Below, piece after piece: positions 4,027 to 57,226 of a DNA stretch of 57,226 bases. The stretch lies in assembly GCA_902613175.1 (NCBI GenBank), contig CACMGJ010000012.1:1-57226 (forward strand), written 5' to 3'. The notes beneath the pieces are model-generated. The model was given only the letters and a program-made list of their open reading frames with translations. It made no database searches and was not told where the DNA came from. The translations under genes and the position numbers were made by a program. How positions within the stretch are numbered: position 1 is the first letter of the stretch; each line of letters opens with the position of its first letter. The DNA comes from Halieaceae bacterium. GTDB taxonomy: Bacteria > Pseudomonadota > Gammaproteobacteria > Pseudomonadales > Halieaceae.

Positions 4027-5216
4027 GCTTCAGGTATCTCAATACCTTTGTATTTTCGATATTCGTTCCACAGCGCTTCGCGAATATCCGGATCGGGTTC
4101 TCGCATTGCGGCCTCGCGAAGCTGGCGCGCAACAATGTCATCATCATTGCCCGATGGAATGTCCTCAGGTGCCTCGTAGACAGCTGGGGCATCAGGTGGC
4201 CCTCCCGAGCGGCCACCCATACCGCCGCCCACGGAGCCATATCCACCTTGATCGTCTGCTTCGTAAGGATTTCGATCGCCGGAGCTTGTCTCGGTTCCCG
4301 AGCCATTTGAGCTTTGCGACGAGCTCTGGGTATTTGCGCCTTGTTCTCGCTGGCTTTCCCGCTGCTGACGTTGCTCTTCCCGGATAATGGCATCAAACAC
4401 GCCTGTGCTCTCTTCGAGCTGCCTATCCAGTACGGCAACACGCTCTGCTGTTGTCATGGTGTCGGTGGCGCCCCAGTCAGGCTCTAAACCACCTTGCGCG
4501 CGCGTACCGCCTGCCTGCCCTGCATCTGTACCTGCGTTAGATGCAACTTGCCCGTTGGTGGCACTTGGCGATGAGTTTTCATTGTTGGTGCCACTCGAAC
4601 CACTGCTTGATGAGCTACCACCCCCCTCGCTGGAGCCACTGCTCGAACCACTACTGCTGCCGCTACTACTCGATGACGCAGTGTAGACCGGCTCTTCATC
4701 CACTAGGCTGGGCAGTGAGAGATCGCCACCAATGGAGTCGCCGAAACCCGGGTCGCCTCCTGCCATAGCCCCTTCACCGGAATTAGAGCCTCCGCTTTCC
4801 ATGCCGCCGGAGCCGCCACCCTGGCTTCCGCCGGGCATACCGCCACCCGCAGAATCACCACCAGTGCTACCACTACCCGCTGAGCCGCCGGAGCTCGATG
4901 AGCCTCCACCCGAAGCACCACCGCCTGATGAACTTCCACCCGACGAACTTCCGCCTTGTGCGCCCCCGCCCGACGAGCCTCCGCCCGCCGAGCCTCCGCC
5001 CGACGAGCCTCCGCCCGACGAGCTAGCCGCACCACTCGAGCCACCACTACTCGAGGAAGAGCTCCCTGATGAGCCGCTAGAGCCCGCACTGCCACCAGGG
5101 GGCATGGATGCAGAAGGGCTGGAAGGTGTCGTTGGCATACTGGCTGATGGGCAGCCCGCGAGTAGCGGCAAAATAACAGCCGTTACAATAAGGCCTTTGA
5201 TCGCTTTACCACTCAT
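4023..5216 (-). CDS. Low-complexity Ser/Gly-rich lipoprotein
   Basis: A 397-residue protein with lipobox LLAGC at Cys22. Residues ~38-135 are almost only Ser and Gly with occasional Ala, a flexible tether. A second Ser/Gly block lies near 180-215. A charged C-terminal part of ~150 residues is rich in Gln, Glu and Arg (TMTTAERVAVLDRQLEES, then EEQRQQRESQREQG) and ends with a helical segment. Both ends overlap neighbours by four bases (ATGA), so it is the middle gene of a tightly coupled trio. No catalytic motif is visible; a surface-exposed or periplasm-spanning tether is plausible. The plus strand across the Ser/Gly block also carries an open frame rich in Pro and Glu, an artefact of the codon pattern. 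Confidence 0.75.
   Translation of the reverse strand: MSGKAIKGLIVTAVILPLLAGCPSASMPTTPSSPSASMPPGGSAGSSGSSGSSSSSSGGSSGAASSSGGGSSGGGSAGGGSSGGGAQGGSSSGGSSSGGGASGGGSSSSGGSAGSGSTGGDSAGGGMPGGSQGGGSGGMESGGSNSGEGAMAGGDPGFGDSIGGDLSLPSLVDEEPVYTASSSSSGSSSGSSSGSSEGGGSSSSSGSSGTNNENSSPSATNGQVASNAGTDAGQAGGTRAQGGLEPDWGATDTMTTAERVAVLDRQLEESTGVFDAIIREEQRQQRESQREQGANTQSSSQSSNGSGTETSSGDRNPYEADDQGGYGSVGGGMGGRSGGPPDAPAVYEAPEDIPSGNDDDIVARQLREAAMREPDPDIREALWNEYRKYKGIEIPEA
4860..5060. repeat. Imperfect tandem 12-15 bp repeats encoding Ser/Gly tracts
   Basis: On the plus strand the unit CCTCCGCCCGACGAG recurs in tandem, clearest at 4978-5023, with degenerate versions (CTTCCACCCGACGAA) on the left. On the coding strand it gives Gly/Ser-rich units. 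Such a tract can change length by slipped-strand replication. Confidence 0.7.
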
Positions 5217-43419: not shown

Positions 43420-44478
43420 ATGAACGAAAATGCCGACGCACGGGTTGCTGAAGGCTATGATATTCAGGCGGTAGAGGCCTGGATTGACGCAAACACCGAT
43501 GACTTTAAGCCACCTTTTTCATGGACGCGATTAGAGGGCGGACACTCTAATTTGACCTACAGGCTCGAGGATGACTCGGGTAAGCGAGCAGTAGTTCGCC
43601 GTCCACCCATGGGCGAGCTCCTACCGAAGGCTCACGACATGAACCGGGAGTGGTCGTTAATCGTCGCTTTTGCACCGCAAGGTTTTCCCGTGCCCGAACC
43701 TATCGGTTTCTGTGAGGATCTATCGGTAACCGGAGCGCTTTTTTATGTGATGGGCTTTTCGGAGGGCCGACCGTTATTCACCAATGACGATACGTTGACG
43801 TGGGTGCCTGAAGCGCAAAGAAGAACCCTAGCGTATTCGTTCATCGATATCTTGGCTGACATGCACGTGCTAGACCCCGATGTCATCGGGCTGTCCACGC
43901 TCGGAAAAAAGGAAGACTATGTGGGCCGCCAAATCAAAGCATGGTACCGATCATGGGAATCCTCAATCGCCTATGCGGAACTGGATGACCCTCGCGCCCA
44001 TGACTTCAAAGACTATTTCCTCGCCCATCAGCCGGAGCAAGTCAGAGCGAGCGTGGTTCACGGTGACTACTATTTGCACAATTGCTTGTTTGGCCAGAAC
44101 TCAAAGGTTTCAGCGGTACTTGATTGGGAGCTCGCAACACTGGGCGACCCGTTAGCGGATTTGGGCTACACCCTTCGTGCTTGGCCCGAGAGCGCTTACG
44201 ACCCTCATCTCGAGCCCACGGCACCTACCGCAGTGCCCGGATTCCCGTTTCGAGCCGAGTTGGCTCAACGCTATGCGGAGCGAACGGGGTTTTCTGTCGA
44301 TCTGCTCGATTATTACGTTGGATTTAATAACTGGAAGACAGCCGCTATTTTACATGGCGTATATGCGCGTTATCGCGCGGGTCAAAAGAGCGCTGAGGGC
44401 GTCGACATGGAGGGCCTGCGTGAGGGGATTTTGAGAGCCTTGAATGGTGCTGAGCGCGCCATTCAGCGGCTTGCGTAG
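43420..44478 (+). CDS. ACAD10/11-like aminoglycoside-phosphotransferase-fold protein
   Basis: 352 residues from ATG 43420, with GGTGGA six bases upstream. ATGs at 43402 and 43414 are alternatives. Kinase-like fold: GGHSNLTYRLE (nucleotide loop), VVRRPPMGELLPKAHDM, catalytic Asp in VVHGDYYLHNCLF and metal-binding Asp in VLDWELATLGDPLADLGY. Relatives act in acyl-CoA metabolism, where the human homologue phosphorylates 4-hydroxyacyl-CoA. This fits the fatty-acid genes nearby. Confidence 0.87.
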   Translation: MNENADARVAEGYDIQAVEAWIDANTDDFKPPFSWTRLEGGHSNLTYRLEDDSGKRAVVRRPPMGELLPKAHDMNREWSLIVAFAPQGFPVPEPIGFCEDLSVTGALFYVMGFSEGRPLFTNDDTLTWVPEAQRRTLAYSFIDILADMHVLDPDVIGLSTLGKKEDYVGRQIKAWYRSWESSIAYAELDDPRAHDFKDYFLAHQPEQVRASVVHGDYYLHNCLFGQNSKVSAVLDWELATLGDPLADLGYTLRAWPESAYDPHLEPTAPTAVPGFPFRAELAQRYAERTGFSVDLLDYYVGFNNWKTAAILHGVYARYRAGQKSAEGVDMEGLREGILRALNGAERAIQRLA

Positions 44479-44502
44479 AGGCGTCGTGCCGCTTTTGGAT
44501 TG

Positions 44503-44727
44503 CTAGAGTCTGTTGAGCTCGAGCATTTTTCCCTCGTCGGTGTACCGAATGACGAACTGGCCTTGAACGCCTGACGGCGTAAAGAATGGCTGAAGCATCG
44601 ACCAAGGTAAATTGATCTTCTTGCCGTCGTTGGCAGTGACTTGTACGCGATTCTTCGCGCCGATGTAGAAAACGCGCGCCTCATCGTACTCAAGGTCAAT
44701 TGAAAATATAGACTGCCTGACGGCCAT
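44503..44727 (-). CDS. DUF2835 family protein
   Basis: 74 residues, the usual size. Pattern FSIDLEYDEARVFYIGAKNRVQVTA, GKKINLPWSMLQPFFT, then GVQGQFVIRYTDEGKMLEL matches DUF2835. A small beta-rich protein of unknown role. An overlapping longer minus-strand frame (44463-44768) is a shadow. Confidence 0.8.
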   Translation of the reverse strand: MAVRQSIFSIDLEYDEARVFYIGAKNRVQVTANDGKKINLPWSMLQPFFTPSGVQGQFVIRYTDEGKMLELNRL

Positions 44728-44902
44728 TCGGCTTTCCCCTGCTTCCGGCGGGCTGTAGCGTTACACAAACACCGTTCTTATCATAAATCGCATGCTTGTG
44801 TGTCACGGCTCTTCCTAATCAGTTTGGGTTCAAAGTCGGGTTTTGATTGGCGGCACTTTAGGAACACAGTACGGTGTCTCTATAACGAGATCGGGAGACA
44901 AC

Positions 44903-45190
44903 ATGGACTTTTCAGATGTGGTGATAGACCAGATTAAAAATCCATTGGATGCATTGTGTGCCGATCTGATGAAAGCCGGTGAGCTAGATCAATACCTATT
45001 CTTTAATGGGGTATCTGAGATGATTGGTGATGCCTCTGATGAGGGCGCGGTCATGATGGGCTGTATCGAGCTCGGTCGCTGCGCCTTCCTTGGCTTTACT
45101 TTCACACCCGATGTCGAACTACAGGTCACACGTATTCTTGATCACGCGATTGATTTGTCGTCGATCATGAGCGCTGACTCGATGCAGTAA
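44903..45190 (+). CDS. Hypothetical protein
   Basis: 95 residues from ATG 44903, fixed by GGGAGA upstream. Acidic and helical (VIDQIKNPLDALCADLMKAG; EGAVMMGCIELGRCAFLGF). No family recognised. The two Cys residues in the middle are not in a metal motif. Confidence 0.65.
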   Translation: MDFSDVVIDQIKNPLDALCADLMKAGELDQYLFFNGVSEMIGDASDEGAVMMGCIELGRCAFLGFTFTPDVELQVTRILDHAIDLSSIMSADSMQ

Positions 45191-45336
45191 CTTGTTGCGG
45201 TTCTAAGTATCCGATGAGGCGAGCGCAGTGCTCATTTGGGAATCACTCGTCATTCATTGCATACTGACACCTGATCATTGACGCCGAGTCGATCGCAACG
45301 ATCGATGCTTGTCACAACATTAATGGAGAGGTGGTC

Positions 45337-46065
45337 GTGTCAGGAACGGTTTTGATTTTGGGGGTTGGTGCGGCTGCGGGGGTTGGCGCAGCAGTCGCGC
45401 GCAAATTTGCCGGGGCCGGCTACCATGTGATGATCGCTGGTCGAACACTTGAGAAGCTCAACGCTACCGCTGCGGATATTAGTGCCGCCGGGGGCTCCAG
45501 CGAATCCATTGTTGCTGATGTCACTTCGCAGGAGGACCAGCAGCGCGTTTTTGAGTTTGTTCGAGCGCGCAACGAGTCTTTGTCGGCCGTGATCTACAAT
45601 GCAGGTAGCAATCTTCCGATTAAGTTTAGTGACCTATCCCCCGAGCAGTTTGAAGACTTTTGGCGCATAGGATGTTTCGGTGCGTTTTTAACCTCCCGCC
45701 TCGCACTTCCACTGTTGTGCGAACAAGGCAAAGGTTCGCTCTTTTTTACCGGTGCCTCTGCGTCCCTTCGGGGTCGTCCGAACTTCGCGCATTTTGCTGT
45801 GGCGAAGGCAGGACTTCGATATCTCGCTCAAGCGCTCGCGCGTGAATACGGACCTCAGGGTGTCCATGTTGCCCACGTCATCATCGACGGTGTGGTTAAC
45901 GGCGATATTGTGCGCGGGCGTTTTGCGGACTATTTGGAGTCGCTGGGTGATGATGGTGCATTAGATCCCGATGCGATTGCCGACGCATTTTGGGCATTAC
46001 ACACTCAGCCGGCATCGGCCTGGACGCATGAGCTGGACTTGAGGCCCTATAAAGAAAGTTGGTAG
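45337..46065 (+). CDS. Short-chain dehydrogenase/reductase, non-canonical
   Basis: 242 residues from GTG 45337, with GGAGAGG six bases upstream. Rossmann glycine motif GVGAAAGVGAAVA, NAG (VIYNAGSNLP) and an Arg after strand 2 (IAGRTLEK), suggesting NADP(H). The YxxxK motif is replaced: FAHFAVAKAGLRYLAQAL has Phe where the catalytic Tyr is expected, with Lys kept. Ends in a WTHELDLRPYKESW tail common in this glyoxylate/oxidoreductase-like group. It may bind cofactor without normal reduction. Last core-like gene before the island. Confidence 0.82.
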   Translation: MSGTVLILGVGAAAGVGAAVARKFAGAGYHVMIAGRTLEKLNATAADISAAGGSSESIVADVTSQEDQQRVFEFVRARNESLSAVIYNAGSNLPIKFSDLSPEQFEDFWRIGCFGAFLTSRLALPLLCEQGKGSLFFTGASASLRGRPNFAHFAVAKAGLRYLAQALAREYGPQGVHVAHVIIDGVVNGDIVRGRFADYLESLGDDGALDPDAIADAFWALHTQPASAWTHELDLRPYKESW

Positions 46066-46315
46066 GGCGAAAAGGATTTTCTTCTTTGGGGACGTGTCTG
46101 ACGATGACAATATCCCAATAAGCTGCCCTACCCCCCTAAGGGGATGGCAGGTTTCTCCCGTTTAATGAATAATTTATTCAGAGTTTTATTAAGAAGCCAG
46201 CTAAAGCGAACTATGTTCGCTCCCAAGAAAAGAAATTGACTGACGTACGGAGAGGTAGGACGCGGAGGTGTTCTGCTTATTTTTTATGTCGAACTTTACG
46301 GGAGTGAATAGTCAA

Positions 46316-46612
46316 ATGATTTCCGACCTTAAGGATACCGTGCTCGTCGGCTTACTGATGATCGCGAGCCTGTCATATGTCGAGAGCGCAATTGCCGGGA
46401 CCTACAGTGGTGCCCTTTACCAGAGCGAGAGCTTTGTCGGTACCTACACAGCGGGTATCGGTGACTGCAATGCAGTCTTAGAGCACCACCAGAACCAACT
46501 TAAACTACTTGGATGGCAGGTTAGTGAAGCCGAGGAAGAGGTTTGGGGTCTCGTTTTGGTAGCCAAGAACCGGGACGATCGTCGGATCGTTATCGAGTGT
46601 AATTGGGGTTAG
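46316..46612 (+). CDS. Small secreted hypothetical protein
   Basis: 98 residues from ATG 46316, with GGGAG 11 bases upstream; in-frame GTG 46268 and ATG 46286 are alternatives. A hydrophobic segment (TVLVGLLMIASLSYVESAIA) looks like a signal peptide cleaved near AIA-GTY. The mature part has two Cys (DCNAVLEHH and IECNWG), able to form a disulphide. No family recognised. Confidence 0.6.
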   Translation: MISDLKDTVLVGLLMIASLSYVESAIAGTYSGALYQSESFVGTYTAGIGDCNAVLEHHQNQLKLLGWQVSEAEEEVWGLVLVAKNRDDRRIVIECNWG

Positions 46613-46828
46613 TGATGGGTTTTAACTCTCGGTTCACTGCCAAGCCCGCTGTATCCAAGTCTACTGTGAAAAAGCCCTTTTGCGAATAGCGTCGATGAAT
46701 GCAAGTTGGAGGAACACACTCTGCTGAGGCCATCCGATCGGTCGCGGCAATCGGAAGCACCCTATGCTAATGACAGTCGGTCCTTTTCTCCCAAGATTCC
46801 AAGACTGGCCTAGGAGGAGATATCCGTC

Positions 46829-47281
46829 GTGGCCGCAGGTAGCATCTTATTGCTTTTATTCAGCGCTCTTCCCGACGCATTGCCCCTGGGTGTCATCGGT
46901 CGATCGACGATCCTGCTTGGTACTGTGCTCTAGCGTAAAGTCAGAAGTGGTCGAAGAAGTGGATGCTATGCGCTCTGCTTGGATCAAATCCGAGGGAAAT
47001 GCGACGGTCATGACATTAATTATGTTTTAGCTGACGAGAAGTGCTACTGTGAAGGTTCAGCCTTAACCAAGTGGTGCGGTAAAACAATGATGCACTCAGA
47101 GCTTGGGTACAGATTGCTCAGGGCCGAACAGGTCAGCCTCGAAAAGCAAATCATTTGGTCATTGTCGCGTTGGCGCGTTTACGGTGACAGAGATGATTTC
47201 AAAAGAGGTATGACCGGTTTAGATCAATTGGCACTGCTGAAGTCACTTGACGCCATGCGTGACGACCGTTCATTTTTTTGA
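46829..47281 (+). pseudogene. Possible decayed small secreted protein gene
   Basis: A GTG at 46829 follows a strong AGGAGGAG site and starts a hydrophobic, signal-like peptide (AAGSILLLLFSALPDALPLG), then TAG at 46931. The same frame reopens to 47281 with Cys-rich KCDGHDINYVLADEKCYCEG and a helical tail. In between, the +1-shifted frame reads more like coding sequence (KSEVVEEVDAMRSAWIKSEG). The simplest reading is one gene with two compensating frameshifts near 46925 and 46995. Otherwise it is a 34-residue peptide and an unrelated frame. Confidence 0.35.
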
Positions 47282-47317
47282 TTCCACCGCTGCGAGCCAA
47301 CGAGCGCAAGCGTCTGA

Positions 47318-47530
47318 TTATAGCAAAAGCAGGCGCGCAGCTGGAATAGTCTTCTTGTCGTTCATGGCGCGACACTCACGATGGCAACGAGGATTTTCGA
47401 TAGGTTTTGAGATTGGTGCCCAGGAGAGGCACCACAACACTTCAAATCCGCTTAGAAAAGCCAATCCATACAGTAATTTATACCACAAAATATCCTCGGT
47501 GAGCGCAATGTTGTCCAAAAGATTGTCCAT
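47318..47530 (-). CDS. Possible small membrane protein
   Basis: 70 residues from ATG 47530. One hydrophobic segment (KLLYGLAFLSGFEVLWCLSW) and a basic C-terminal tail. No ribosome site is seen. An overlapping plus-strand frame (47247-47555) is less protein-like. It is only a candidate. Confidence 0.25.
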   Translation of the reverse strand: MDNLLDNIALTEDILWYKLLYGLAFLSGFEVLWCLSWAPISKPIENPRCHRECRAMNDKKTIPAARLLLL

Positions 47531-47559
47531 TTGTCTTGGTGTGGACAAACAATAGAGGG

Positions 47560-47616
47560 CCGGGGGGCTACCGCATTTATCCGATAGCAGTAGTTACCTG
47601 CCAGATATATTGGAGG
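47560..47616 (+). repeat. Hairpin repeat copy A
   Basis: GGGGGG, then CTACCG-N8-CGATAG, then CAGTAGTTACCTGCCAGATA. It shares ~85% with copies B-F by eye. Confidence 0.85.
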
Positions 47617-47752
47617 GTGACGAAAAAAAGACGAGTCTCCCCGCCTTAGTTTCTTCCTCCTGCTGTAGGTCTTTGAGCCTACTTCTTCCCCAGAATCGAA
47701 GATCCGAACACTTTTAACAGTAACGCTTTTACAAAAGTTTCAACACACTGGT

Positions 47753-47807
47753 AGGCGCTATCGCATTGATCCGATAGCAGTAGTCACCTGCCAGATACAC
47801 CAGAAGC
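47753..47807 (+). repeat. Hairpin repeat copy B
   Basis: Perfect stem CTATCG-N8-CGATAG followed by CAGTAGTCACCTGCCAGATA and CACCAGAAGC. The G-run of the other copies is reduced to AGGCG. Confidence 0.85.
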
Positions 47808-48220: not shown

Positions 48221-48655
48221 ATGAGGCTTCTTTTATTTTTAGTTGGGCTTATCAGCTTTACCGCACAAGCCGACGTGCTGACCGACCCGCAGCTGGTCGC
48301 CGTTCAGTTTTTTGAGCACTTTAATGACGAAAATCTTGAGGGTTTAGAGGAAACAACGGCGCAGCCATTTACCTATAACATTAACGGCAAGGTCACTCAG
48401 TACAACAGTATCGTTGATGCCATTAACTTTGACGGACTGAGAAAATCTGGTTGGGCATATTCAGGAATAAATGACAATGAGTTGCTCGTCATCGTGGAAG
48501 AAAAACTAGCGACTGTGTCTATCAATTTCTCGCGTTACAACGATCAAGGCATAGCTTACGACACAGAGAATGTCATCTATCAACTCGCGAAAGTAGAGGG
48601 TGTTTGGAAGATTATGACCGCGACCATCGCGGGAGACATCACCCTTGGAGAATAA
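48221..48655 (+). CDS. Secreted NTF2-like protein
   Basis: 144 residues with a signal peptide (MRLLLFLVGLISFTAQADV, cleavage after AQA). The mature part has the NTF2/SnoaL-like order: helix (LVAVQFFEHFNDENLEGL), strand-rich TAQPFTYNINGKVTQY, and end strands ENVIYQLAKVEGVWKIMTAT. It probably is a small periplasmic ligand-binding or enzyme-like fold; no ligand can be read. It lies between repeats B and C. Confidence 0.7.
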   Translation: MRLLLFLVGLISFTAQADVLTDPQLVAVQFFEHFNDENLEGLEETTAQPFTYNINGKVTQYNSIVDAINFDGLRKSGWAYSGINDNELLVIVEEKLATVSINFSRYNDQGIAYDTENVIYQLAKVEGVWKIMTATIAGDITLGE

Positions 48656-48697
48656 ACTTTTAGTGCTATTTACGGCCCTAATGGGTCGAAGTTTGCG

Positions 48698-48754
48698 CCC
48701 AGGGGGCTACCTCATTTGCCCGATAGCAGTAGTTACTTGCCAGATACATTAGGG
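48698..48754 (+). repeat. Hairpin repeat copy C
   Basis: CAGGGGGCTACCT, loop, CCGATAG, then CAGTAGTTACTTGCCAGATA and CATTAGGGG. The left stem arm has two changes. Confidence 0.85.
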
Positions 48755-48788
48755 GATGGAATATTTCGCTTCTGCGCATGAGCTGACG

Positions 48789-49313
48789 TTACCGAATATA
48801 TCCATCTACAGGCAGTGTAAATCGATCTTGATCGGCCAGTTCTCTCGCTAGCCGTGAGAGGCATTTCCGCGCTTCCTCGACGTCACTTCTACGAGCGGGC
48901 CCCATAAGGGACATTTCCTCGATAAAGTGCATGCGGGCTCTGGACGACAGGCAGCCGAGAAAAGCGTCACGGGTGTCCTTAGCGGCGCCGGCAAGCGCAA
49001 GCATCAGCTTCTGAGCCTCAGCCTCGCGCACCAGCGTTTGTAGGCTGCGGCTGTCTGCTTGCACCAGGCGTTCAAATGGCAGCATCTCGTCCAGAATCTG
49101 TTGCGCCAGCCCTTGGTCGCGCTGCTTGAGGTCCGTCGCGACCTCATCCGCTGTGGTGACTTTGAGGTGAGACAGGATCCCTGCGGCTACAGCAACACCC
49201 CCTAATTTGATCATCGCCTTCCTCTGTTCTGCCTCGATTAAACCAAACAAACTGCCATCTTCAGCATTTCGTCTAAAAAAAATCGTTGAAATACCTTGCT
49301 GGTAAAATGGCAT
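48789..49313 (-). CDS. Orphan FliG-like protein (middle and C-terminal domains)
   Basis: 174 residues from ATG 49313; ATG 49214 with AGAGGAAGG upstream would give 141 residues beginning exactly at the FliG middle domain (MIKLGGVAVAAGILSHLK), and may be the true start. Then RDQGLAQQILDEMLPFERLV and DSRSLQTLVREAEAQKLMLALAGA match the middle domain, and the C-domain follows (FLGCLSSRARMHFIEEMSLMGPARRSDVEEA). Charged positions that contact the MotA stator in E. coli FliG are kept by spacing: Arg125, Glu132-Glu133 and Arg141. The FliF-binding N-domain is absent, and no flagellar gene is in the window. It is the only clear minus-strand island gene, between repeats C and D. Confidence 0.75.
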   Translation of the reverse strand: MPFYQQGISTIFFRRNAEDGSLFGLIEAEQRKAMIKLGGVAVAAGILSHLKVTTADEVATDLKQRDQGLAQQILDEMLPFERLVQADSRSLQTLVREAEAQKLMLALAGAAKDTRDAFLGCLSSRARMHFIEEMSLMGPARRSDVEEARKCLSRLARELADQDRFTLPVDGYIR

Positions 49314-49434: not shown

Positions 49435-49502
49435 CAGCACCCCCGGGGGGGGGCTTGCGCATTGATCCGAAAGCGTTAGTTTCCTGCGAGATTCATTAAA
49501 GG
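49435..49502 (+). repeat. Hairpin repeat copy D (divergent)
   Basis: CAGCACCCCCGGGGGGGG, then CTTGCG-N8-CGAAAG, then CGTTAGTTTCCTGCGAGATT. Most diverged copy; the stem is damaged but the flanks match E and F. Confidence 0.75.
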
Positions 49503-49568
49503 TAGTTTTAATATTGATCCCTTGCATCGAGAGGCTTTGATTAGTCAGCAAATTCGCCGGTAACCTAC

Positions 49569-50426
49569 ATGCACTTTTCAAACGAACAGACACAAAAACC
49601 TACCGACTGCGCCGAGGTTTACGGTATCGATCACTCTCCGTGGGTACAAGCAGTTCTGCTGGGTTTGACAGAAAAAGGCATTGATTGGCGTTTGAAGTCA
49701 GTGCCTCCACTACAGACATTTTTCAAATGGGGGGTTTTGATGCCTGTCGCTTCGCTAGACGCAAGAAGCTGGAAGCGAGAGTCATCTAATTTGCTTACGG
49801 ATATGGGATTTGAGCCAGTAATCGAATCCGACTTAGTCGCGATACGAAATGCATGGCGAGGAGTCACCTATCGCACTGAGGGACACATCGAGTTTCTCCG
49901 TTCATTCGCTAAAGCCGGCGATTCCTCGGAAGACGTCTTTAAGCGCTCACTTCACAACTTTCTGCGCAGTTTCATCGCTCTATACATGCTGACCTTGATC
50001 ACTATAGTACGAGTATCGAAGAGGGTCTCTGTTCCGAGCGATTGGGGTAAACAATTCCTTTATTGGGAAAGGTGTTTGACCACCTCGCCAGGCCAATTTA
50101 TCGATGGAATTACGCCAGGGTCGCGTGATTTTTTACTTTTCGGTATAGTTCAGTGCCACTGCAGTATTCCAGTGCCGCCACTTCGTGCGCTTAGAGAAGA
50201 TGGTCGGCTGACGCTGATACGAGCCTGGATTTGCTCGATGCAAGAGCGGTATCCAGAATATCAACATTGTTACTCAGCACAATATTTCGATACCGGGCTT
50301 TCACCTCGCACCAGCAGCTCAAACTTTCAGCAACTACTATTTGGGGTGGGAGTAGTCGTCATGCTGGCAGCCCTCCCCATAGTCTTTCCAACGATGATTT
50401 TTTACATACTCAGGACGCCAAGATAG
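49569..50426 (+). CDS. Glutathione S-transferase-like protein with C-terminal membrane helix
   Basis: 285 residues. The start VYGIDHSPWVQAVLLGLTEKGIDWRL and SVPPLQTFFKWGVLMPVASLD resemble a GST thioredoxin-fold N-domain; the Ser-Pro-Trp pair sits where the catalytic Ser/Cys lies. The C-domain is helical. A membrane helix at about 258-280 (QQLLFGVGVVVMLAALPIVF) is unusual for a GST. It may detoxify hydrophobic compounds at the inner membrane; the MAPEG gene 316 bp further is a related function. Confidence 0.7.
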   Translation: MHFSNEQTQKPTDCAEVYGIDHSPWVQAVLLGLTEKGIDWRLKSVPPLQTFFKWGVLMPVASLDARSWKRESSNLLTDMGFEPVIESDLVAIRNAWRGVTYRTEGHIEFLRSFAKAGDSSEDVFKRSLHNFLRSFIALYMLTLITIVRVSKRVSVPSDWGKQFLYWERCLTTSPGQFIDGITPGSRDFLLFGIVQCHCSIPVPPLRALREDGRLTLIRAWICSMQERYPEYQHCYSAQYFDTGLSPRTSSSNFQQLLFGVGVVVMLAALPIVFPTMIFYILRTPR

Positions 50427-50587
50427 TTAAAAAAAACGATCTTTAGTCGGGCTTGCTTGATCATCGCAAGTATGTCCAAGGCAATCACCGCGTTGAGTTG
50501 TATAAGAACCACTAATTCTTTATTCACTTGAGCATATGTCGCTACTGGATCTGCAGAGGTAACTGACGCCTCCTTCGTCGCTTCCAC
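50402..50587 (-). CDS. Possible small helical protein
   Basis: 61 residues from a GTG at 50587. Codon use looks coding (EATKEASVTSADPVATYAQV, then KELVVLIQLNAVIALDILAM), giving one amphipathic or membrane helix. No ribosome site. It overlaps the end of the GST-like gene by 25 bp and fills most of the 316-bp spacer before the MAPEG gene. Confidence 0.35.
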   Translation of the reverse strand: MEATKEASVTSADPVATYAQVNKELVVLIQLNAVIALDILAMIKQARLKIVFFNYLGVLSM

Positions 50588-50742
50588 CGTTGCTTAGAAA
50601 AGGGAAGATATCGTTTGATTAGCTAGTCCGTTGATTGGAATATAAGATATCCCTTGACGAACGGCTCCGGTAGCGTGATCCGTCGGGCTAACTAACAAAA
50701 GTTTTTTTTATCGTTCAAATATGGAAAATAAAGGACAGAGTT

Positions 50743-51171
50743 ATGGGCACGGAAATCTTCATACCCATCTTTTACATGGTGATATTAACATCCGCGGTTT
50801 TTCTTTTTAATGTCATTATCCGCTTCAAAGACGTCCTAATCGACAAAGGGCATAGTGGATCGGAATTAATGAAGATTCCAGTCCCCTCATCTGCCAGTGA
50901 CCTGTTAAAGCAAGCTGATAGAAATTTAATTAATCTGTTTGAGTTTCCTATACTATTTTATGCTGCATGTATTTCTATCTACGTGGCTGGTAGGGTTGAT
51001 GAAGCTTTTGTTTTACTCGCGTACTGCTTTGTAGGCATCAGAGTCGCACACAGCGTTTACCATATCTTTTTCAATGGATTTGTAGGTGCTTTGCCAATTA
51101 GGGCCCTATTTTTCCTTCCGAGCTGGGCAATTATAATTTGGATGTGGTTTAGATTTGTCCAGATGATGTGA
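50743..51171 (+). CDS. MAPEG family membrane protein
   Basis: 142 residues with four predicted helices (about 6-28, 66-84, 88-106, 118-140). ADRNLINLFEFPILFYA and GIRVAHSVYHIFFN with PIRALFFLPSW are the MAPEG signatures. Family members are membrane glutathione transferases or eicosanoid enzymes; most bacterial ones are uncharacterised. AAAGGA precedes the ATG. Confidence 0.85.
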   Translation: MGTEIFIPIFYMVILTSAVFLFNVIIRFKDVLIDKGHSGSELMKIPVPSSASDLLKQADRNLINLFEFPILFYAACISIYVAGRVDEAFVLLAYCFVGIRVAHSVYHIFFNGFVGALPIRALFFLPSWAIIIWMWFRFVQMM

Positions 51172-51292
51172 TTCATCTCTGTACAATTACTGTCGCTTCG
51201 TGCGACGTGCACCAAGCCTGAAGTCGTTGCGAACTTTAAGCACAACATGGCTAGCTTGGACTACAAAGTAAATAAAGAGACTCAACACGACT

Positions 51293-52480
51293 ATGGACTA
51301 TCCGATTCCCGCCGGTGAGGAGCAGCGCCTTGCCACTCTGAAGAACTACGAGATTATGGACAGCGCACCGGAAATTTGTTTCGACGAAATTACGGAACTC
51401 GCGGCAGAAATCTTGCAATGCCCCGTGTCTTTTATCGAATTCATGGATGCCGACCGCCAGTGGTTTAAATCGAAGTATGGTTTAACCGACGACTATATCG
51501 AAACACCGAGAGATATTGCGATCTGCGCGACAACGATTTGCCAGAGTGACTTGCTTACGGTCAATGATCTCACTGAGGACGACAGATTCGCTAATAATCC
51601 ATTGGTGAGTTCTGCGCCCAATATCCGTTTTTACGCAGGTATGCCTCTGATCTCTCCAGATGGTGCAGCCGTGGGTACGATTTGCGCTGTGGACTTTGAA
51701 AAGCGCGAAATTTCTCAGAGCCAAAAAGAAGCCTTGCGCAGACTGTCGAGACAGGTGATGGCTCAGCTTGAATTACGCCGGGCGCTAAAGGACGCTGACA
51801 AGGCTGTAAAAAGCCGAGAAGAGCTGTATCAAGCTTTGCTCAACGAGAAACAAGCATTGGACCAATTCATGGTCAACATGCTACCCGCGAGTATCGCAGA
51901 AGAGCTCAAACGCGACGGGAAGGTCGAACCAAAATACATCGATGAAGCGAGCATTATGTTCTGCGATTTCGTTGGCTTCACCAAGCTTACAGAGACCATG
52001 TCGCCGCAAAATCTTATCGACTTGCTGCATCAATGTTTCTGTAAGTTTGATTCAATCGTTGCCAAACACGGCGTAGAAAAAATCAAGACAATTGGTGATG
52101 CGTATATGTGCGTTGCTGGTGCAACTGGCGACCAAGAGGATCACGCTACGCGCCTTTGCATGGCTGCTCTTGAGATGATCGGCTACCTCAACAAGACCAA
52201 TCGCACGCGTGAAAAATTGCGTATGCCCACTTGGGATATGCGAGTTGGTATTCACTCCGGTCCTGTGATCGCAGGTGTAGTCGGCGAAAATAAATTTACA
52301 TTCGACGTCTGGGGTGATGCCGTGAATATCGCCGCTCTAATGGAGCAAAACTCCGAGCGCGGGAGGGTAAATATTTCTGAGTCGACCCAGCATCGTGTGA
52401 GCCAACAATTCCAACTGGAAGATCGAGGTCTCGTACCCACCCGCAAGAAAGGCGACTTGCGAATGTTTTTCGTTAGCTAA
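51293..52480 (+). CDS. GAF domain class III nucleotide cyclase lacking the transition-state Arg
   Basis: 395 residues. GAF domain at about 24-165 (EEQRLATLKNYEIMDSAPE is a conserved lead), coiled-coil linker 165-205, cyclase domain 218-395. Metal Asp225 (MFCDFVGFTKL) and Asp269 (KTIGDAYM), adenine-selecting Lys265 and Asp338 (FTFDVWGDAVN) and Asn345 are present, predicting ATP as substrate. The Arg four residues after Asn345 is Leu349 (codon CTA 52337-52339; CGA would restore Arg). Activity should be strongly reduced. GAF may sense a small ligand or redox. No membrane helix. Confidence 0.87.
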   Translation: MDYPIPAGEEQRLATLKNYEIMDSAPEICFDEITELAAEILQCPVSFIEFMDADRQWFKSKYGLTDDYIETPRDIAICATTICQSDLLTVNDLTEDDRFANNPLVSSAPNIRFYAGMPLISPDGAAVGTICAVDFEKREISQSQKEALRRLSRQVMAQLELRRALKDADKAVKSREELYQALLNEKQALDQFMVNMLPASIAEELKRDGKVEPKYIDEASIMFCDFVGFTKLTETMSPQNLIDLLHQCFCKFDSIVAKHGVEKIKTIGDAYMCVAGATGDQEDHATRLCMAALEMIGYLNKTNRTREKLRMPTWDMRVGIHSGPVIAGVVGENKFTFDVWGDAVNIAALMEQNSERGRVNISESTQHRVSQQFQLEDRGLVPTRKKGDLRMFFVS

Positions 52481-52672
52481 TAGGTTATTGCTCTAATCTC
52501 TAAAGTATCAAAGGTTCCGGGACCTTGTCCTCTGAAACACAAGTAAACGCCTACCCGCTTCTAAACAAGTTACTTCGTTTAGCACTCCCGCGGTGACATT
52601 CGCATACCCGATCGGAAAGCCTAGATAGTATTTACATTAATTAAATAAACTATTGTTTTAATCATAAATTTT
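52481..52672. other. Spacer with AT-rich lead of repeat unit E
   Basis: No gene. The last ~45 bp (from ~52630) are AT-rich and align with the block before the tRNA fragment at 53922, so the repeated unit starts here. Confidence 0.5.
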
Positions 52673-52727
52673 ATGTTTCACGAGACCAGACTTTAACCGC
52701 GACACGCAATGAGCGGGGGATTTTAAG
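52673..52727 (-). repeat. Degenerate tRNA-Leu 3' fragment (unit E)
   Basis: On the minus strand, CTTAAAATCCCCCGCTCATT followed by a damaged T-arm. It aligns with the better preserved copy at 53922-53975. The variable arm and T-stem are mutated, so it is older or free of selection. Confidence 0.7.
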
Positions 52728-52846
52728 TTCCTTGGATCGCGACATAACCCTAGAAAACACAACATAACCCCTACTCTTCTGGCCGTTTTTCTGTGTTTGG
52801 TTGGGTTTTGAGGGGTTATCGCGGGTTATTAGTGTCAGCAGAGTGT
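52728..52846. repeat. Arm-like repeat block of unit E (ATAACCCC motifs)
   Basis: ATAACCC at 52744 and 52764; inverted GGGGTTAT at 52812 and CGGGTTAT at 52822; direct GTGTCAGCA at 52832 and 52843. This arrangement resembles arm-type binding sites of a tyrosine recombinase. ~85-90% shared with units F and G by eye. Confidence 0.8.
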
Positions 52847-52910
52847 CAGCACCCCCGGGGGGGCTATCGCATTTATCCGATATCAGTAGTTACCTTCTAG
52901 ATACGTTTGT
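52847..52910 (+). repeat. Hairpin repeat copy E
   Basis: CAGCACCCCCGGGGGGG, CTATCG-N8-CGATAT, then CAGTAGTTACCTTCTAGATA. One stem mismatch. Confidence 0.85.
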
Positions 52911-53070
52911 GAGTGAATGATCCTCAAAGCAACTCACGCATAAAATTAAATTCGATTTCCGCAGGTTTCCCGTCTACATTAAAGTAAAGGCCGAGCTAGT
53001 CATGATCACCTAGGCTCATCGTCAGACCAAGAATTGCAAAAAGTAGCGGATTAATTAGGAGGACAGTTTA

Positions 53071-53805
53071 ATGAAGTACTTTTTATTGATAGTCAGTATC
53101 GCTTTCGGATCGTCTACTGCCTGGTCTTCCGACCATGACGGGACTCCCTCGCAACTCGCCGTTATTTGGGAGTGCACGCTGAACGACGGCATCACTGCAA
53201 GGGACGTAGCTGAATGGGGCTCGACCGATTTTAAGAAATTCGTTGAAAAAAATAGTCTTAATATGACAAGTTACTTGTGGGAAGCCGTATCGGTGAATCC
53301 ACCGTTCGACGCTCCCGATGTAAGGTGGATAGATTACTATCCCTCTTGGTCTGATTTTTACAAGGCCGACGCCGCCTGGTTGGGCAGCGGCCAGCTCGTG
53401 GACGACTACTACGATCTCGTTACCTGTGAAAAGCCTGTAACAGCTAGGACGCTGCAAGCGGGTGCACCTGTCCCAGAAGAAAAGATTAAAACTTTATATG
53501 CGAGGGTCTGCCAACTTAATGAAGGCGCAACAATACAAGATGCGGTGGCTTATCGAGAGGCTGTTAATAAAATTCAGAATAGTCAGATAAAAGAGGGTTC
53601 TGTCGGAAGCTTCCTATTCTCTCCAGGGTTTGGCTTGTCTGGGTTTGACTATGTGGCTGCGGTCGCCGGATCAGTAGAAGATATGGCGTCGGTATTGGAT
53701 GGCTCTCTGGATGGCTCGACTGCTGCTGCCATAGAGTCAGCTGGACATTCTGAGCCTGCGCAGTGCGTGGTTGATTTGCACCGCTCGCACACGATGGTCA
53801 ACTAG
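53071..53805 (+). CDS. Secreted protein with two related halves
   Basis: 244 residues with a signal peptide (YFLLIVSIAFGSSTAWS). AGGAGG precedes the ATG. Two ~100-residue halves start alike (WECTLNDGITARDVAEWGS and VCQLNEGATIQDAVAYREA) and resemble tandem dimeric alpha/beta-barrel (ferredoxin-like) modules. Three Cys residues (about 33, 129, 155) are spaced for disulphides. No catalytic motif or named family recognised. It sits alone between units E and F. Confidence 0.7.
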   Translation: MKYFLLIVSIAFGSSTAWSSDHDGTPSQLAVIWECTLNDGITARDVAEWGSTDFKKFVEKNSLNMTSYLWEAVSVNPPFDAPDVRWIDYYPSWSDFYKADAAWLGSGQLVDDYYDLVTCEKPVTARTLQAGAPVPEEKIKTLYARVCQLNEGATIQDAVAYREAVNKIQNSQIKEGSVGSFLFSPGFGLSGFDYVAAVAGSVEDMASVLDGSLDGSTAAAIESAGHSEPAQCVVDLHRSHTMVN

Positions 53806-53820
53806 TACAAACAGGTCGGA

Positions 53821-53870
53821 GTGTCACCTATGTGTCACCCGACGAAGATGGTGACAACAAGGGTCGGGTG
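53821..53870. repeat. GTGTCACC direct repeats and 8-bp inverted repeat
   Basis: GTGTCACC at 53821 and 53832, inverse GGTGACA at 53850; CACCCGAC (53836-53843) pairs with GTCGGGTG (53863-53870). It could be recombinase arm sites or a weak terminator of the gene ending at 53805. Confidence 0.55.
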
Positions 53871-53921
53871 TATTTACTTGACGTTTTAAATATAAATTAT
53901 TGTTTTTATTAATATTTTTTT

Positions 53922-53975
53922 GTCCCCGGGGCCGGACTTGAACCGGCACGCTCGCAATGAGCGGGGGATTTTAAG
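53922..53975 (-). repeat. tRNA-Leu 3' half (att-like fragment, unit F)
   Basis: Minus-strand reading: CTTAAAATCCCCC (anticodon UAA region), variable arm CGCTC-N5-GAGCG, T-arm GCCGGTTCAAGTCCGGC and acceptor CCCGGGGAC. No CCA follows, and the 5' half (D-arm) is absent. Breaking in the anticodon loop is typical of tyrosine-recombinase attachment sites in tRNA genes. It is not a working tRNA gene. Confidence 0.8.
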
Positions 53976-54094
53976 TTCCTTGGATCGTGACATAACCCCA
54001 GATAACACAACATAACCCCTACCCTCCTAGCCATTTTGCTGTGTTTAACGGGGTTTTGAAGGGTTATCGCGGGTTATGTGGGTCAGTGGAGTCT
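53976..54094. repeat. Arm-like repeat block of unit F
   Basis: ATAACCCC near 53992 and 54012, inverted GGGTTAT near 54061 and 54071. Same order and spacing as unit E. Confidence 0.8.
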
Positions 54095-54158
54095 CAGCAC
54101 CCCCGGGGGGCTATCGCATTGATCCGATAGCAGTAGTTACCTGCCAGATACATTAGAA
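54095..54158 (+). repeat. Hairpin repeat copy F
   Basis: CAGCACCCCCGGGGGG, perfect stem CTATCG (54111-54116) and CGATAG (54125-54130), then CAGTAGTTACCTGCCAGATA and CATTAGAAGC. Closest to consensus. Confidence 0.88.
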
Positions 54159-54467
54159 GCTAATTTGAAAAGAGGAGATTTTGTGCTTAATCTTGAAACT
54201 TCAGGGATAGTTCGCGGGCGCTTTGTGTTTGCACTCCAGCACAATATCCTCATCTGCAGATCATTCCATATTTAGACTTATCAAATGGCTCAAATTTACA
54301 AGCTGCCGAGAAAATATGTGTCTAAAGCTTACAAAGGGTGTCGAAATTTTGGGACGAGCGAGTGGCAGTTAATGCTTAAAGGGCGAGTCGTAATTTAGCA
54401 ACTTCCCGAGGGGCCGCGGTATCTGTAGGAAGTAATAGCACAGAGGCAAGCGCAAGCAGTAAAACGA
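54159..54467. other. 309-bp spacer before the cyclase-TPR gene
   Basis: No gene supported. It is AT-rich, with a likely upstream regulatory region for the 54468 gene, but no promoter is convincing. Confidence 0.35.
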
Positions 54468-57104
54468 ATGACAGATTCGATTGAGAGAAAAATAGCGGTC
54501 ATCTTCGCCACAGATGTGGTGGGCTACAGTTCCGCCATGGAGCGTGACGAGATACAGACGCTGAAGAATCTCCGCTCTTGCAAAGCGATCTTAATGTCTC
54601 TTCTGGAAGAAAACGGTGGCAGAGTTTTCAATACTGCAGGAGATTCCGTGCTTGCAGAGTTCACGAGCGCCGTGTCCGCAGTAATTTGCGCCTCAGAATT
54701 TCAGCGCTTGATCGCAGAGCGTAATAGTGGAGCGGAAGAAAAAGAGCAGATGCTTTTCCGGGTTGGCCTAAATATTGGTGACGTGGTCATAGAAGACAGC
54801 AACCTTTACGGAGAGGGCGTTAATATTGCAGCACGCTTGGAAGCGTCAGCTATGCCTGGAGGCGTTACTGTCTCAAAAAGCTTTTTTGATCTTGTCGACG
54901 GCAAGACTGAGCTGGCTTTCAAGGATGTTGGTACTCAGCGAGTTAAGCAGAATGTGTTTCATGCGTTCGACTTAACTAGCCAACACTCTGCGGAGAGGCC
55001 TCAAGAAAAGACATCGTCTCTTAAGCCGGAGCGCGTAATAAAAAAGCCATCTTTCCTCATTGGCATAGTGGCTGCCGTCGCGGCCTTATCAGTCCTAATT
55101 AATAATTTCGCCGGCTCAACACTTGATAAGATTTTACTATCACATTTCAGGCCTATGCCGTTTTTTACGCTAGGCCCAATAAGCCCTACTAACACAATGT
55201 CATCTGACGAATTATTTTATGCGTTTGCTATATGGGGCGTTCTTGAGGAAGCCACGGATTCATTTGATGGCGAACTAATGATGAACTCAATCGGTATTGG
55301 CGGTTGGGACATGTTGCGGCAACAAGGTTTTGTAACCATTGACGGGATGTTGGATGTTAGCGACATTACGGCCGCGGACATAGACTCTCTACTTGTACCG
55401 GGCGATTTCATAATGATGGGATCGGTGGATCTAGATGGGGAAGTACCTACAGTTACTTTGGAATTGTTTAGTAAAGAGTATGGCTTTGAGCAACCTGTAA
55501 AAGTATTTTCAAAGGGCGTTGAAAGCCTAACTTCGCTCGCAAACTTTCTCACAGAGTCCCTTTATACTTCTCACGGAATGATGGTTGAACAGGAGTGGGG
55601 TCACACATCAATAGTCTCCCGTCTACTTCCCCGTACTAACGAGATTTTTAAGCAATATGGTGAGCTGCGGTCCTATGAATTAAGTTCGAAAGAGCTCTCG
55701 CCACAAGAAATCAATGAGCAAATCAATAGCATCTTAGTCATTGAGCCCCGATTTGCTCTCGCGTGGCTCGAAAAAGTTTTCAGTCTAAAAGACCTGTCAA
55801 GCGAGGACTTTCGCGAAGCTGTTTCAAAATTGTATGCGCTTAAAGACAACCTTGGGCCTAGGCATTCACTCCACGCCGCCTCACTTTACTACTCTTGGGT
55901 CCGACCAGATTCCTCTCTGCGAACCAAGGCAGCATTAAGGGCTTATGAATCTAAGCCATTTGATTGGTTTTTGAGCTACAACTTGTGGCAAGAGTATCTG
56001 GAAGCGGGCGAAATCGATCTTGCTTTGGAGGTGGCATCGGAAACCCGGGGGAATCCACCCGTTTTCGCAATCGCTCGAGCCTATTCCAGTATCAACGACC
56101 ATCAGAAAGTTTTGCAAACCTTTGATAATGACGGAGATTACTGGCAAGAGAATGGAACTTATATCAATAGCTTGTGTCAAGTCAGTGCGCCTGAGACATG
56201 CATAGAGAGTTCTGAGATTTTGCTAGCTAATTCTCCGCAAGAGGTTTCTGGTTACGAACTAAAATCAAGCAGTGAAATCTGTCTCGCGGACTTCACTGGT
56301 GCGGAAGAGACCTTAAAAACGTTTGAACGGGTTTTATTCAGTGATCCCTCGGATTCGGGAGTCCTCAGTGTTCGCGCCGAACAAGCGTTGGCCACGGGAC
56401 GCATAGATACTTTTGAGCGTTACTGCAGAGCCGCTCTGGTGCGAGCGGAAAATGGTGTATTTACTGAGGAGTCCTTGCTGGTATCGAAATGCGATCTGGA
56501 CGTTGCGCTAACCAAAAATCAGTTTGAAACTGCTGAAGTGCTCTTGTCTGAACTCGAGGCCACGCGAGAGACTTCATATGATCCCTATGGTTTTACTACT
56601 CGAAAGCTAGAGTTCGAAATCATTCTATTTGAGCGTGGGAACTCGCTGGCTAACCTAGAAGAGCTAGAAATTGCATTTTCGAACTTCCAGCAGAGCAACT
56701 TGATTTATAAGAAGCGCTCACCGCGAAGTGCCGAATTATTGGAAGCAAAGCTAAAAGCCAGGTACCTATTGATCAAAAACGAGGCTGGGCTTGCGATTAA
56801 AACACTTGAGCGTGGGGGCAAATATGATTTTGATCCTCGCACCGAGGCGATAACGTGGGCGCGTGCTTTGTCGATGCAAGGAGATCACCAGGCAGCATTA
56901 AGCAAGCTAGAGCGTATTACTCACACGTGCCCTATGGCGCCCGAGCCGTTGATCACACAAGCGGAGATCGCCAAAAAAGCAGGCAATGAAACTCTTTACC
57001 TTTCCAGTCTAGAAAGCGCCCAAAAATCTCTGACTGTCGCTGACGCCGATTTTCATCTTCTGCGAGATTTGAAAAAAATTCGAGCGCAAACGAATGGCCA
57101 GTAG
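54468..57104 (+). CDS. Class III nucleotide cyclase with membrane helix and TPR-like domain
   Basis: 878 residues. Cyclase domain at about 6-170: metal Asp16 (FATDVVGYSSAME) and Asp59 (NTAGDSVLAEF), Asn119 and transition-state Arg123 (GVNIAARLE). Asn55 replaces the usual Lys that selects adenine, so the base is uncertain. A linker leads to one membrane helix at about 196-215, then a C-terminal ~650-residue alpha-rich region with TPR-like spacing (YSWVRPDSSLRTKAALRAYE, LEVASETRGNPPVFAIARAY). The large domain should lie outside the membrane and may sense or scaffold. This architecture is widespread in proteobacteria with unknown signals. Confidence 0.88.
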   Translation: MTDSIERKIAVIFATDVVGYSSAMERDEIQTLKNLRSCKAILMSLLEENGGRVFNTAGDSVLAEFTSAVSAVICASEFQRLIAERNSGAEEKEQMLFRVGLNIGDVVIEDSNLYGEGVNIAARLEASAMPGGVTVSKSFFDLVDGKTELAFKDVGTQRVKQNVFHAFDLTSQHSAERPQEKTSSLKPERVIKKPSFLIGIVAAVAALSVLINNFAGSTLDKILLSHFRPMPFFTLGPISPTNTMSSDELFYAFAIWGVLEEATDSFDGELMMNSIGIGGWDMLRQQGFVTIDGMLDVSDITAADIDSLLVPGDFIMMGSVDLDGEVPTVTLELFSKEYGFEQPVKVFSKGVESLTSLANFLTESLYTSHGMMVEQEWGHTSIVSRLLPRTNEIFKQYGELRSYELSSKELSPQEINEQINSILVIEPRFALAWLEKVFSLKDLSSEDFREAVSKLYALKDNLGPRHSLHAASLYYSWVRPDSSLRTKAALRAYESKPFDWFLSYNLWQEYLEAGEIDLALEVASETRGNPPVFAIARAYSSINDHQKVLQTFDNDGDYWQENGTYINSLCQVSAPETCIESSEILLANSPQEVSGYELKSSSEICLADFTGAEETLKTFERVLFSDPSDSGVLSVRAEQALATGRIDTFERYCRAALVRAENGVFTEESLLVSKCDLDVALTKNQFETAEVLLSELEATRETSYDPYGFTTRKLEFEIILFERGNSLANLEELEIAFSNFQQSNLIYKKRSPRSAELLEAKLKARYLLIKNEAGLAIKTLERGGKYDFDPRTEAITWARALSMQGDHQAALSKLERITHTCPMAPEPLITQAEIAKKAGNETLYLSSLESAQKSLTVADADFHLLRDLKKIRAQTNGQ

Positions 57105-57108
57105 CAGA

Positions 57109-57226
57109 GATTTTGAGTTCCTTGGATCGCGATATAACCCCAGATAACACAACATAACCCCTACTCTTCTAGCCATTTTGCTGTGTTTAGTCGGGTTTTG
57201 AGAGGTTATCGCGGGTTATTCGTGTC
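57109..57226. repeat. Repeat unit G, cut by the window edge
   Basis: GATTTTGAG, then the TTCCTTGGATCGCGATATAA run, ATAACCCC twice, inverted GGTTATCGCGGGTTAT and GTGTC at the last bases. The tRNA part is reduced to the anticodon-loop end. By analogy with E and F a hairpin copy should follow just past 57226. Confidence 0.8.

Follow-up and report, generated by a model that had tools for sequence, protein, structure and literature searches.

The 57,226-nt stretch analysed here (the window) is the whole of contig CACMGJ010000012.1, or C12, of a Halieaceae metagenome-assembled genome (MAG; assembly GCA_902613175.1; 1.9 Mb in 82 contigs, 58.6% complete). Below, G, C and L numbers are our labels for genomes, contigs and loci. 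At about 47 kb the G+C content of the window falls from ~54% to 44–49%. The right-hand part is occupied by an array of small gene groups, three composite units (E, F and G) and several copies of a conserved site of about 55 nt, referred to here as the hairpin site. The units carry attachment sequences of tRNA-Leu(TAA), the array lies in an island of a different gene, tRNA-Leu(CAG), and the hairpin site recurs in islands of eight tRNA types. The features of the array are as follows (ORF, open reading frame).

47414..47429, minus strand: 3′-terminal 16 nt of tRNA-Leu(CAG), the attachment repeat on the integrase-distal side of the island; exact overlap with empty sites
47430..47559, plus strand: arm region with TTGTCCA/TGGACAA repeats (by eye); same repeats beside the C2 integrase (L030, ~7260)
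47560..47620, plus strand: hairpin site 1; model match, 69.7 bits
47748..47811, plus strand: hairpin site 2, after a 190-nt mini-segment; model match
48221..48655, plus strand: cargo ORF of 144 aa; weak NTF2-like match below cut-off
48696..48757, plus strand: hairpin site 3; model match
48789..49313, minus strand: cargo ORF with a FliG C-terminal domain (Pfam)
49442..49504, plus strand: hairpin site 4; model match
49569..52480, plus strand: three cargo ORFs (285 aa without a match; MAPEG; GAF and guanylate cyclase; Pfam)
52640..52680, strand unassigned: AT-rich block of unit E, probable P arm of the element
52686..52734, minus strand: decayed tRNA-Leu(TAA) 3′ half and core of unit E; 82%
52735..52851, plus strand: arm sites of unit E, of ATAACCCC type, with GTGTCAGCAGAGTGTCAG (52832)
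52852..52916, plus strand: hairpin site 5 (unit E); model match
53071..53805, plus strand: cargo ORF of 244 aa; no Pfam match
53888..53921, strand unassigned: AT-rich block of unit F, similar to the one that follows the intact tRNA-Leu(TAA) in G036
53922..53982, minus strand: tRNA-Leu(TAA) 3′ half and core of unit F; 55 nt identical to the intact gene
53983..54099, plus strand: arm sites of unit F
54100..54165, plus strand: hairpin site 6 (unit F); best match of the model, 82.5 bits
54468..57104, plus strand: cargo ORF of 878 aa; guanylate cyclase domain at its start (38 bits)
57109..57226, plus strand: unit G, consisting of a changed core and arm sites; the contig ends before a hairpin site

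The units are marked by a 118-nt repeat present in three copies (52719–52836; 53967–54084, 86%; 57109–57226, 91%). Units E and F show 83% identity, and hence are not copies of each other. Both include the hairpin site. In unit F, 55 nt (53922–53976, minus strand) are identical to positions 32–86 of an intact 88-nt tRNA-Leu(TAA), so that the cut falls in the anticodon loop. The tRNA 3′ half of unit E is decayed and retains 24 exact nucleotides. Unit F also carries two direct copies of ATAACCCC and two inverted copies of GGGTTAT (by eye; the repeat listing gives a 30-nt inverted repeat), one of these four motifs is changed in unit E, and the two GTGTCAG motifs, exact in E, are degenerate in F (both by eye). 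Unit G includes neither the AT-rich block nor the tRNA 3′ half. Its changed core (GATTTTGAG) starts at 57109, four bases past the stop of the 878-aa ORF (57104) and, since the window is the entire contig, the unit is cut by the assembly break before the hairpin site. An earlier note on this DNA had described all three units as sharing one order of parts, with a tRNA half cut in the anticodon loop: this applies to E and F, and to G in part only. It had also placed a single gene between successive units, and each interval indeed holds one long ORF (E–F, 244 aa; F–G, 878 aa), shorter overlapping frames being left out. ARAGORN detects no tRNA in the window, and Rfam gives nothing above threshold.

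An intact tRNA-Leu(TAA) is found in the same genome on contig C13 (L026:5060–5147), followed by an AT-rich block and a gene for a 375-aa tyrosine recombinase. The 18-nt double motif of unit E, GTGTCAGCAGAGTGTCAG, has an exact copy ~33 bp upstream of this recombinase gene, which ties the units to the tRNA-Leu(TAA) integrase. Composites of the same kind are present outside the window on C28 and, as a diverged copy, on C23 of the same genome, as well as in G036 (two loci), G014 and G001. GTGTCAGCAGAGTGTCAG is exact in the G014 and G001 composites and differs at one position in the C23 copy and at two in G036. The C28 composite adjoins sequence with homology to the right-hand flank of the tRNA-Leu(TAA) island of G016, G001 and G036. 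Units E and F are the integration ends of a tRNA-Leu(TAA)-specific element and comprise a core, integrase arm sites and the conserved site of ~55 nt. The view of the earlier note that the units are tRNA-Leu attachment modules is upheld, with both the intact tRNA gene and its integrase located in the genome. The diverged copy (L025:387–700) is itself found on a contig that carries a tRNA-Pro and an integrase.

The array is not located at tRNA-Leu(TAA). Parts of its left flank (window 43447–47429) lie at 0.97 Mb in G002 and 0.11 Mb in G004, one-contig genomes in which tRNA-Leu(TAA) is at 2.01 and 1.19 Mb, respectively, ~1 Mb away. The flank ends at 47414–47429, which are the 16 terminal 3′ nucleotides of tRNA-Leu(CAG). 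G002, G016 and G042 have the empty site: in these genomes the flank is continuous into an intact tRNA-Leu(CAG), with a 16-nt overlap. Hence it is an island of tRNA-Leu(CAG) that houses the tRNA-Leu(TAA) units. Contig C2 carries an intact tRNA-Leu(CAG) followed by genes for a 502-aa integrase and a primase-like protein, and TTGTCCA repeats occur at both ends, on C12 and C2 (by eye). We infer that a single tRNA-Leu(CAG) island has its ends on C12 and C2, the gene order of this fragmented genome being deduced from G002 and G004. The successive integrations at tRNA-Leu which the earlier note had proposed, a simple ladder at tRNA-Leu(TAA), were rejected for this array because it begins at the tRNA-Leu(CAG) 3′ end, ~1 Mb from tRNA-Leu(TAA) in G002 and G004. 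A second case of this type is a 20-nt tRNA-Sec end with arm and hairpin site inside the tRNA-Cys island of G036 (L042:10721–10884). Tandem units with their own attachment sequences and without an integrase are found in the window (E and F) and in L043 (two composites); those of L043 lie at the cognate attachment gene whereas those of the window do not. From site to site, the E–F interval reads gene, AT-rich block, core, arms, site. This is the form of an excised circle opened at the hairpin site, from which the order may derive; it fits equally an integrase ladder at a stray copy of the attachment site.

What all rungs of the array have in common with islands of other tRNA genes is the hairpin site and not the tRNA half, which does not support the earlier note's cassette system based on a tRNA-type site. 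A search model built from 60 sites identifies it in 20 of 140 genomes of the family and in 2 of 28 genera: 17 of the 57 genomes of the window's genus and 3 of a second genus. There are 27 matches in the window's genome, 35 in G014 and 20 in G036. A scan of a named genome collection with one pattern returned 15 stretches, whose titles name Halieaceae (7), Proteobacteria (4), Alteromonadaceae (3) and Gammaproteobacteria (1). The block from 0 to +27 is the most conserved part, and conserved sequence runs on into the next segment. Twenty-five modules were collected by hand from sites with an upstream tRNA or tRNA fragment, including composites within arrays (E, F, two of L043 and one of L045). These represent eight tRNA types: Leu(TAA), Leu(CAG), Leu(CAA), Phe, Asp, Sec, Cys and Thr(TGT). 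For Leu(CAA), G057 and G036 give firm cases and G008 and G042 matches of 15–16 nt, while the targets His, Asn and Leu(GAG), with matches of 14–21 nt only, are kept outside the eight. The distance between the tRNA edge and the reference point of the site is 137–253 bp in 24 modules and 807 bp in the other, and in all 25 the site points away from the tRNA edge, into the island. As collection depended on an upstream tRNA, this orientation is partly a product of choice. A control addresses this: tRNA matches of at least 15 nt are present 100–300 nt upstream of 28 of 86 sites, downstream of none of the 86, and in 73 of 3000 random windows.

Among islands with an integrase located beside an intact tRNA, the site occurs at the end opposite the integrase in L026/C28, L030/C12, L219, L229 and L221. 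Modules joining a tRNA to the site are also present in G036 and in three genomes that are single contigs (G002, G004 and G057). Sites in 17 of the 18 multi-site loci share one orientation, and same-strand spacings (n = 49) have a median of 1427 bp. The sole locus with an orientation switch (L042:13646–16355, on C1 of G036) resembles two arrays facing each other. Another array (L048:8509–11343, on C17 of G036) includes two copies of the site between tRNA-Thr(TGT) and tRNA-Tyr, within a tRNA cluster.

Islands bounded by an intact tRNA and a direct 3′ repeat are present on single contigs for Leu(TAA), Phe, Asp, Sec, Cys (25 nt, 92%) and Leu(CAA), and across two contigs, C12 and C2, for Leu(CAG). 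Empty sites are found in relatives for Thr, Cys and Leu(CAG). At tRNA-Cys, homology to an array-bearing query ends at the tRNA 3′ end or at most 37 nt away in the array-free genomes listed, and continues to the hairpin site in G036, G000, G019 and G004. tRNA-Thr is similar, homology continuing in G036, G007, G021 and G015 and, in G009, to 77 nt past the tRNA. An integrase lies beside the intact tRNA in L026, L030, L219, L229 and L221, and remnants are found in L236 and L041. For the Phe (L028) and Cys (L027) islands of G000, no integrase was seen in the ORF lists (by eye) and none matched PF00589, in a search that overlooked the diverged integrases of C2 and C23 too. The integrases of five islands (Leu(TAA), Leu(CAG), Sec, Asp and Pro) give no mutual blastp match at 1e-3: islands with clearly different integrases thus have the hairpin site in common. 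No relatives of two of the integrases were found in viral contigs. Among 49 proteins submitted to Pfam, representing part of the island ORFs, there is no transfer or capsid gene, and the element is therefore probably moved by others, as are the hitchhiker elements reviewed in PMC11389934.

Comparison of the islands shows homologous cargo behind different ends and homologous ends with different cargo, with the switch at the hairpin site. The all-against-all comparison, like the first profile, drew on 24 sources; it yielded 312 pairs of at least 90 nt. The window and C65 of G014 agree up to site 1 and diverge after it, and DNA of a DUF2059 gene follows tRNA-Thr arms in G036 and G014 and tRNA-Leu(TAA) arms in G001. 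Three G036 segments among the 49 that run from site to site have a G014 homologue over at least 70% of both lengths (86.7, 91.9 and 94.4%). The mini-segment of the window (47593–47783, 190 nt) recurs twice in G014 (L044:10578–10771 and L044:14397–14590; 93.8 and 95.9%). Such mini-segments, of 190–193 nt, have the site on both sides in two genomes and are too short for a gene. In a first switch test (72 sites; 44 same-left and 24 same-right pairs), the switch appeared at GCAGTAG/TTACC, that is, GCAGTAG and then TTACC. Cargo thus differs between relatives, which supports the earlier note on this point, and each rung holds one or few genes.

Cargo gene orientation in the arrays is mixed. Genes with guanylate or adenylate cyclase domains recur as cargo (window 51293–52480 and 54468–57104; L042:17873–19612; L043:9195–10484), and the 174-aa cargo ORF at 48789–49313 has a FliG C-terminal domain as its sole Pfam match. 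A protein of 394–416 aa matching phrog_4756, a family of unknown function, follows the integrase in L219:6499–7746 (G002) and L229:10443–11624 (G016), and short remnants of it are present inside several islands that carry the site. Its identification as PolA-like, from family A polymerase motifs seen by eye, was dropped: there is no PDB match to E 1, and the G002 protein has no Pfam match to 0.05. Outside the array, the window includes a tandem repeat at 4896–5023 (period 15, 8.5 copies, 73% matches).

These observations can be brought together in a model which we consider probable, in which E, F and G are integrase-distal ends of a small tRNA-Leu(TAA) element located inside a tRNA-Leu(CAG) island, and the hairpin site is both a cis mobilisation signal and a point of cargo exchange. 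The canonical element would consist of the tRNA, the integrase, sometimes a replication-type gene, cargo, hairpin site, arms and core, and in the sister island E, F and G would act as boundaries between cargo segments. The site would be a cis-acting signal, a nick or packaging origin, read by a common helper: such a helper would require just such a short signal at a fixed place and orientation in otherwise different elements. Excised circles, or their cargo, would join resident islands by recombination between copies of the site. Several signals on one molecule would allow segments to move or join from signal to signal, which fits the arrays, and the outcome would be arrays with one or few genes per rung. 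Taken separately, a role of the site as a mobilisation origin is quite possible, if short of probable, another role or homologous exchange only is a tentative alternative, and a dedicated recombination site is doubtful.

Several results weigh against this model. No matching P arm is found for the tRNA-Sec composite in the tRNA-Cys island, the tRNA-Leu(CAG) island of G004 (L223:6602–12967) has a 17-nt repeat and no detectable hairpin site, and on C23 the site points away from the integrase-bearing tRNA-Pro. tRNA matches of at least 14 nt are lacking in the 420 nt upstream of 59 of the 90 model sites; of the 31 with such a match, two (window 47593 and 47783) share one fragment. The diversity of the integrases is also not complete, as those at Leu(CAA) in G057 (60%) and the Phe remnant in G009 (53%) are relatives of the Leu(CAG) integrase. 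The stem GCTATCG/CGATAGC is paired in 82% of cells over 58 sites and 413 of 2000 shuffles reach the same value, which gives no covariation support for folding; the hairpin as a folded structure was accordingly rejected. When clusters are weighted equally (89 sites; same-left, 15 clusters; same-right, 12), the bootstraps, in at least 1940 cases out of 2000, place the switch within −12 to +11 around G/TT. The sharp crossover between G and TT is then lost, and exchange lies inside the conserved block, with no fixed base or site-specific cleavage demonstrated. No helper, relaxase, terminase or dedicated enzyme turned up, no genome-wide search having been aimed at relaxases, HUH transposases or terminases. 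Three exact patterns of the site have no match in IMG/VR, the non-tRNA part of the composite has none in phage records, and PLSDB gives no credible match to the site (one weak in Haladaptatus, E 0.6). Known phages and plasmids thus gave no match to the site as a packaging or transfer signal, and exact patterns revealed in IMG/VR no helper phage of the kind that would share its packaging site with a phage satellite. Three Acinetobacter phages match the tRNA part of the composite only; they carry tRNA-Leu itself.

Other explanations account for part of the data. Ordinary homologous recombination among repeats of ~55 nt (in places up to ~270 nt) which have another real role would explain why breakpoints are spread across the conserved block, and the flanking modules, also repeated, could pair as well. 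The fixed position and orientation of the site beside ends of several tRNA types nevertheless needs a function of the site in any case, and as the whole explanation homologous recombination seems on the unlikely side. Alternatively the site could be the target of a dedicated enzyme, either a tyrosine recombinase or a single-strand nicking enzyme of the HUH type, which exchanges single-gene cassettes, in an integron-like but integron-independent manner, among islands of at least eight tRNA specificities. The same-strand spacings and single orientation per locus of the sites, the conservation of the 0 to +27 block and the first switch test are all in favour of this. However, the sharp switch disappears under cluster weighting and no enzyme is seen beside the arrays (the ORFs listed for the Phe and Cys islands of G000 look, by eye, like cargo only), which makes such an enzyme doubtful. 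It is also conceivable, and rather improbable, that a stray copy of the tRNA-Leu(TAA) attachment site reached the tRNA-Leu(CAG) island, where the integrase, acting in trans, added further elements, as happens in the accretion of cis-mobilizable elements. Both E and F have a core plus arms, a relative of the integrase is found at tRNA-Leu(TAA) in G042 (78.5% over the 121 aa read), and G036 has two tandem composites in the island of tRNA-Leu(TAA) itself. This explanation leaves unexplained how the first copy departed from its tRNA gene, why the site is present in rungs with no recognisable tRNA piece, and how cargo is swapped between ends of different tRNA type.

Two further explanations carry far less weight. 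The arrays resemble integrons in that a direct-repeat site lies between groups of one or few genes, and could be cassettes with unusual attC sites. They differ in the mixed orientation of the genes and in conservation that extends into the next segment, and none of the 57 genomes of the genus passes the 265-bit cut-off of the IntI model (TIGR02249), the highest value among the matches listed being 84.5 bits. Compared with the R and L boxes of attC, the GTT core has no consistent upstream partner (by eye, no attC model having been run) and the stem lacks covariation. The integron was rejected for lack of an IntI above cut-off, and we give it almost no credence. An assembly artefact of a 58.6%-complete MAG might be suspected because C12 ends inside unit G and repeats break assemblies, but it is very improbable: the sequence difference between E and F shows that they are not copies, and modules joining a tRNA to the site are found in three one-contig genomes and in G036, which is isolate AG-901-J11 and probably a single-cell genome.

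Several classes of known mobile elements share features with the islands described here. In pdif (Xer) modules, inverted Xer sites surround the module whereas the hairpin site keeps one orientation in nearly all multi-site loci; the two are set apart by orientation alone. Cis-mobilizable elements (CIMEs) and integrative and mobilizable elements (IMEs) include non-autonomous units with attachment sites which stack in tandem at one attachment site by accretion. Tandem attachment-bearing units without an integrase beside an integrase-bearing element are a clear likeness. The present islands differ in that the units of one tRNA type are embedded in an island of another type, and in that a common site adjoins the arms whatever the type. 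VEIMEs (virion-encapsidated integrative mobilizable elements) are marine hitchhiker elements with a tRNA target, a tyrosine recombinase and cargo, and tycheposons are distinguished by a deep-branching recombinase clade and hallmark genes. To our knowledge, no such shared site is known for either. Both resemble the present islands in tRNA target, tyrosine recombinase and cargo, and were compared on these features alone.

Tycheposons are discussed in PMC10872708, and VEIMEs are named among hitchhiker elements together with IMEs that carry only an origin of transfer (oriT), or iOriT (PMC11389934). A combination of an integrase, a short shared cis signal and a helper acting in trans would fit the iOriT type. 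Neither a relaxase nor a helper oriT was found, no search having been aimed at relaxases. Additive flexible genomic islands of aquatic bacteria vary by gene cassettes (excerpts of PMC5217437), and one is marked by recurring tRNA-Lys end repeats (excerpts of PMC10872708). In these excerpts the repeat is the tRNA end and no shared non-tRNA site is mentioned, in contrast to the hairpin site. A literature search, of incomplete coverage, found no report of one site common to islands at different tRNA genes. The elements are probably tRNA-targeting hitchhiker islands, moved by others, with a site shared across tRNA types.

The usual view of tRNA-gene islands is that of independent elements, every one with an integrase of its own. 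The hairpin site ties several of them into one gene-sharing network, found here in marine bacteria, the Halieaceae. Exchange at this site would explain how the attachment modules of one tRNA came to lie inside the island of another, and if the dedicated-enzyme explanation were true, integration ends and cargo would be interchangeable parts. The site also provides a handle on the movement of small islands that lack an integrase, since the protein that reads it would be the helper or the exchange enzyme.

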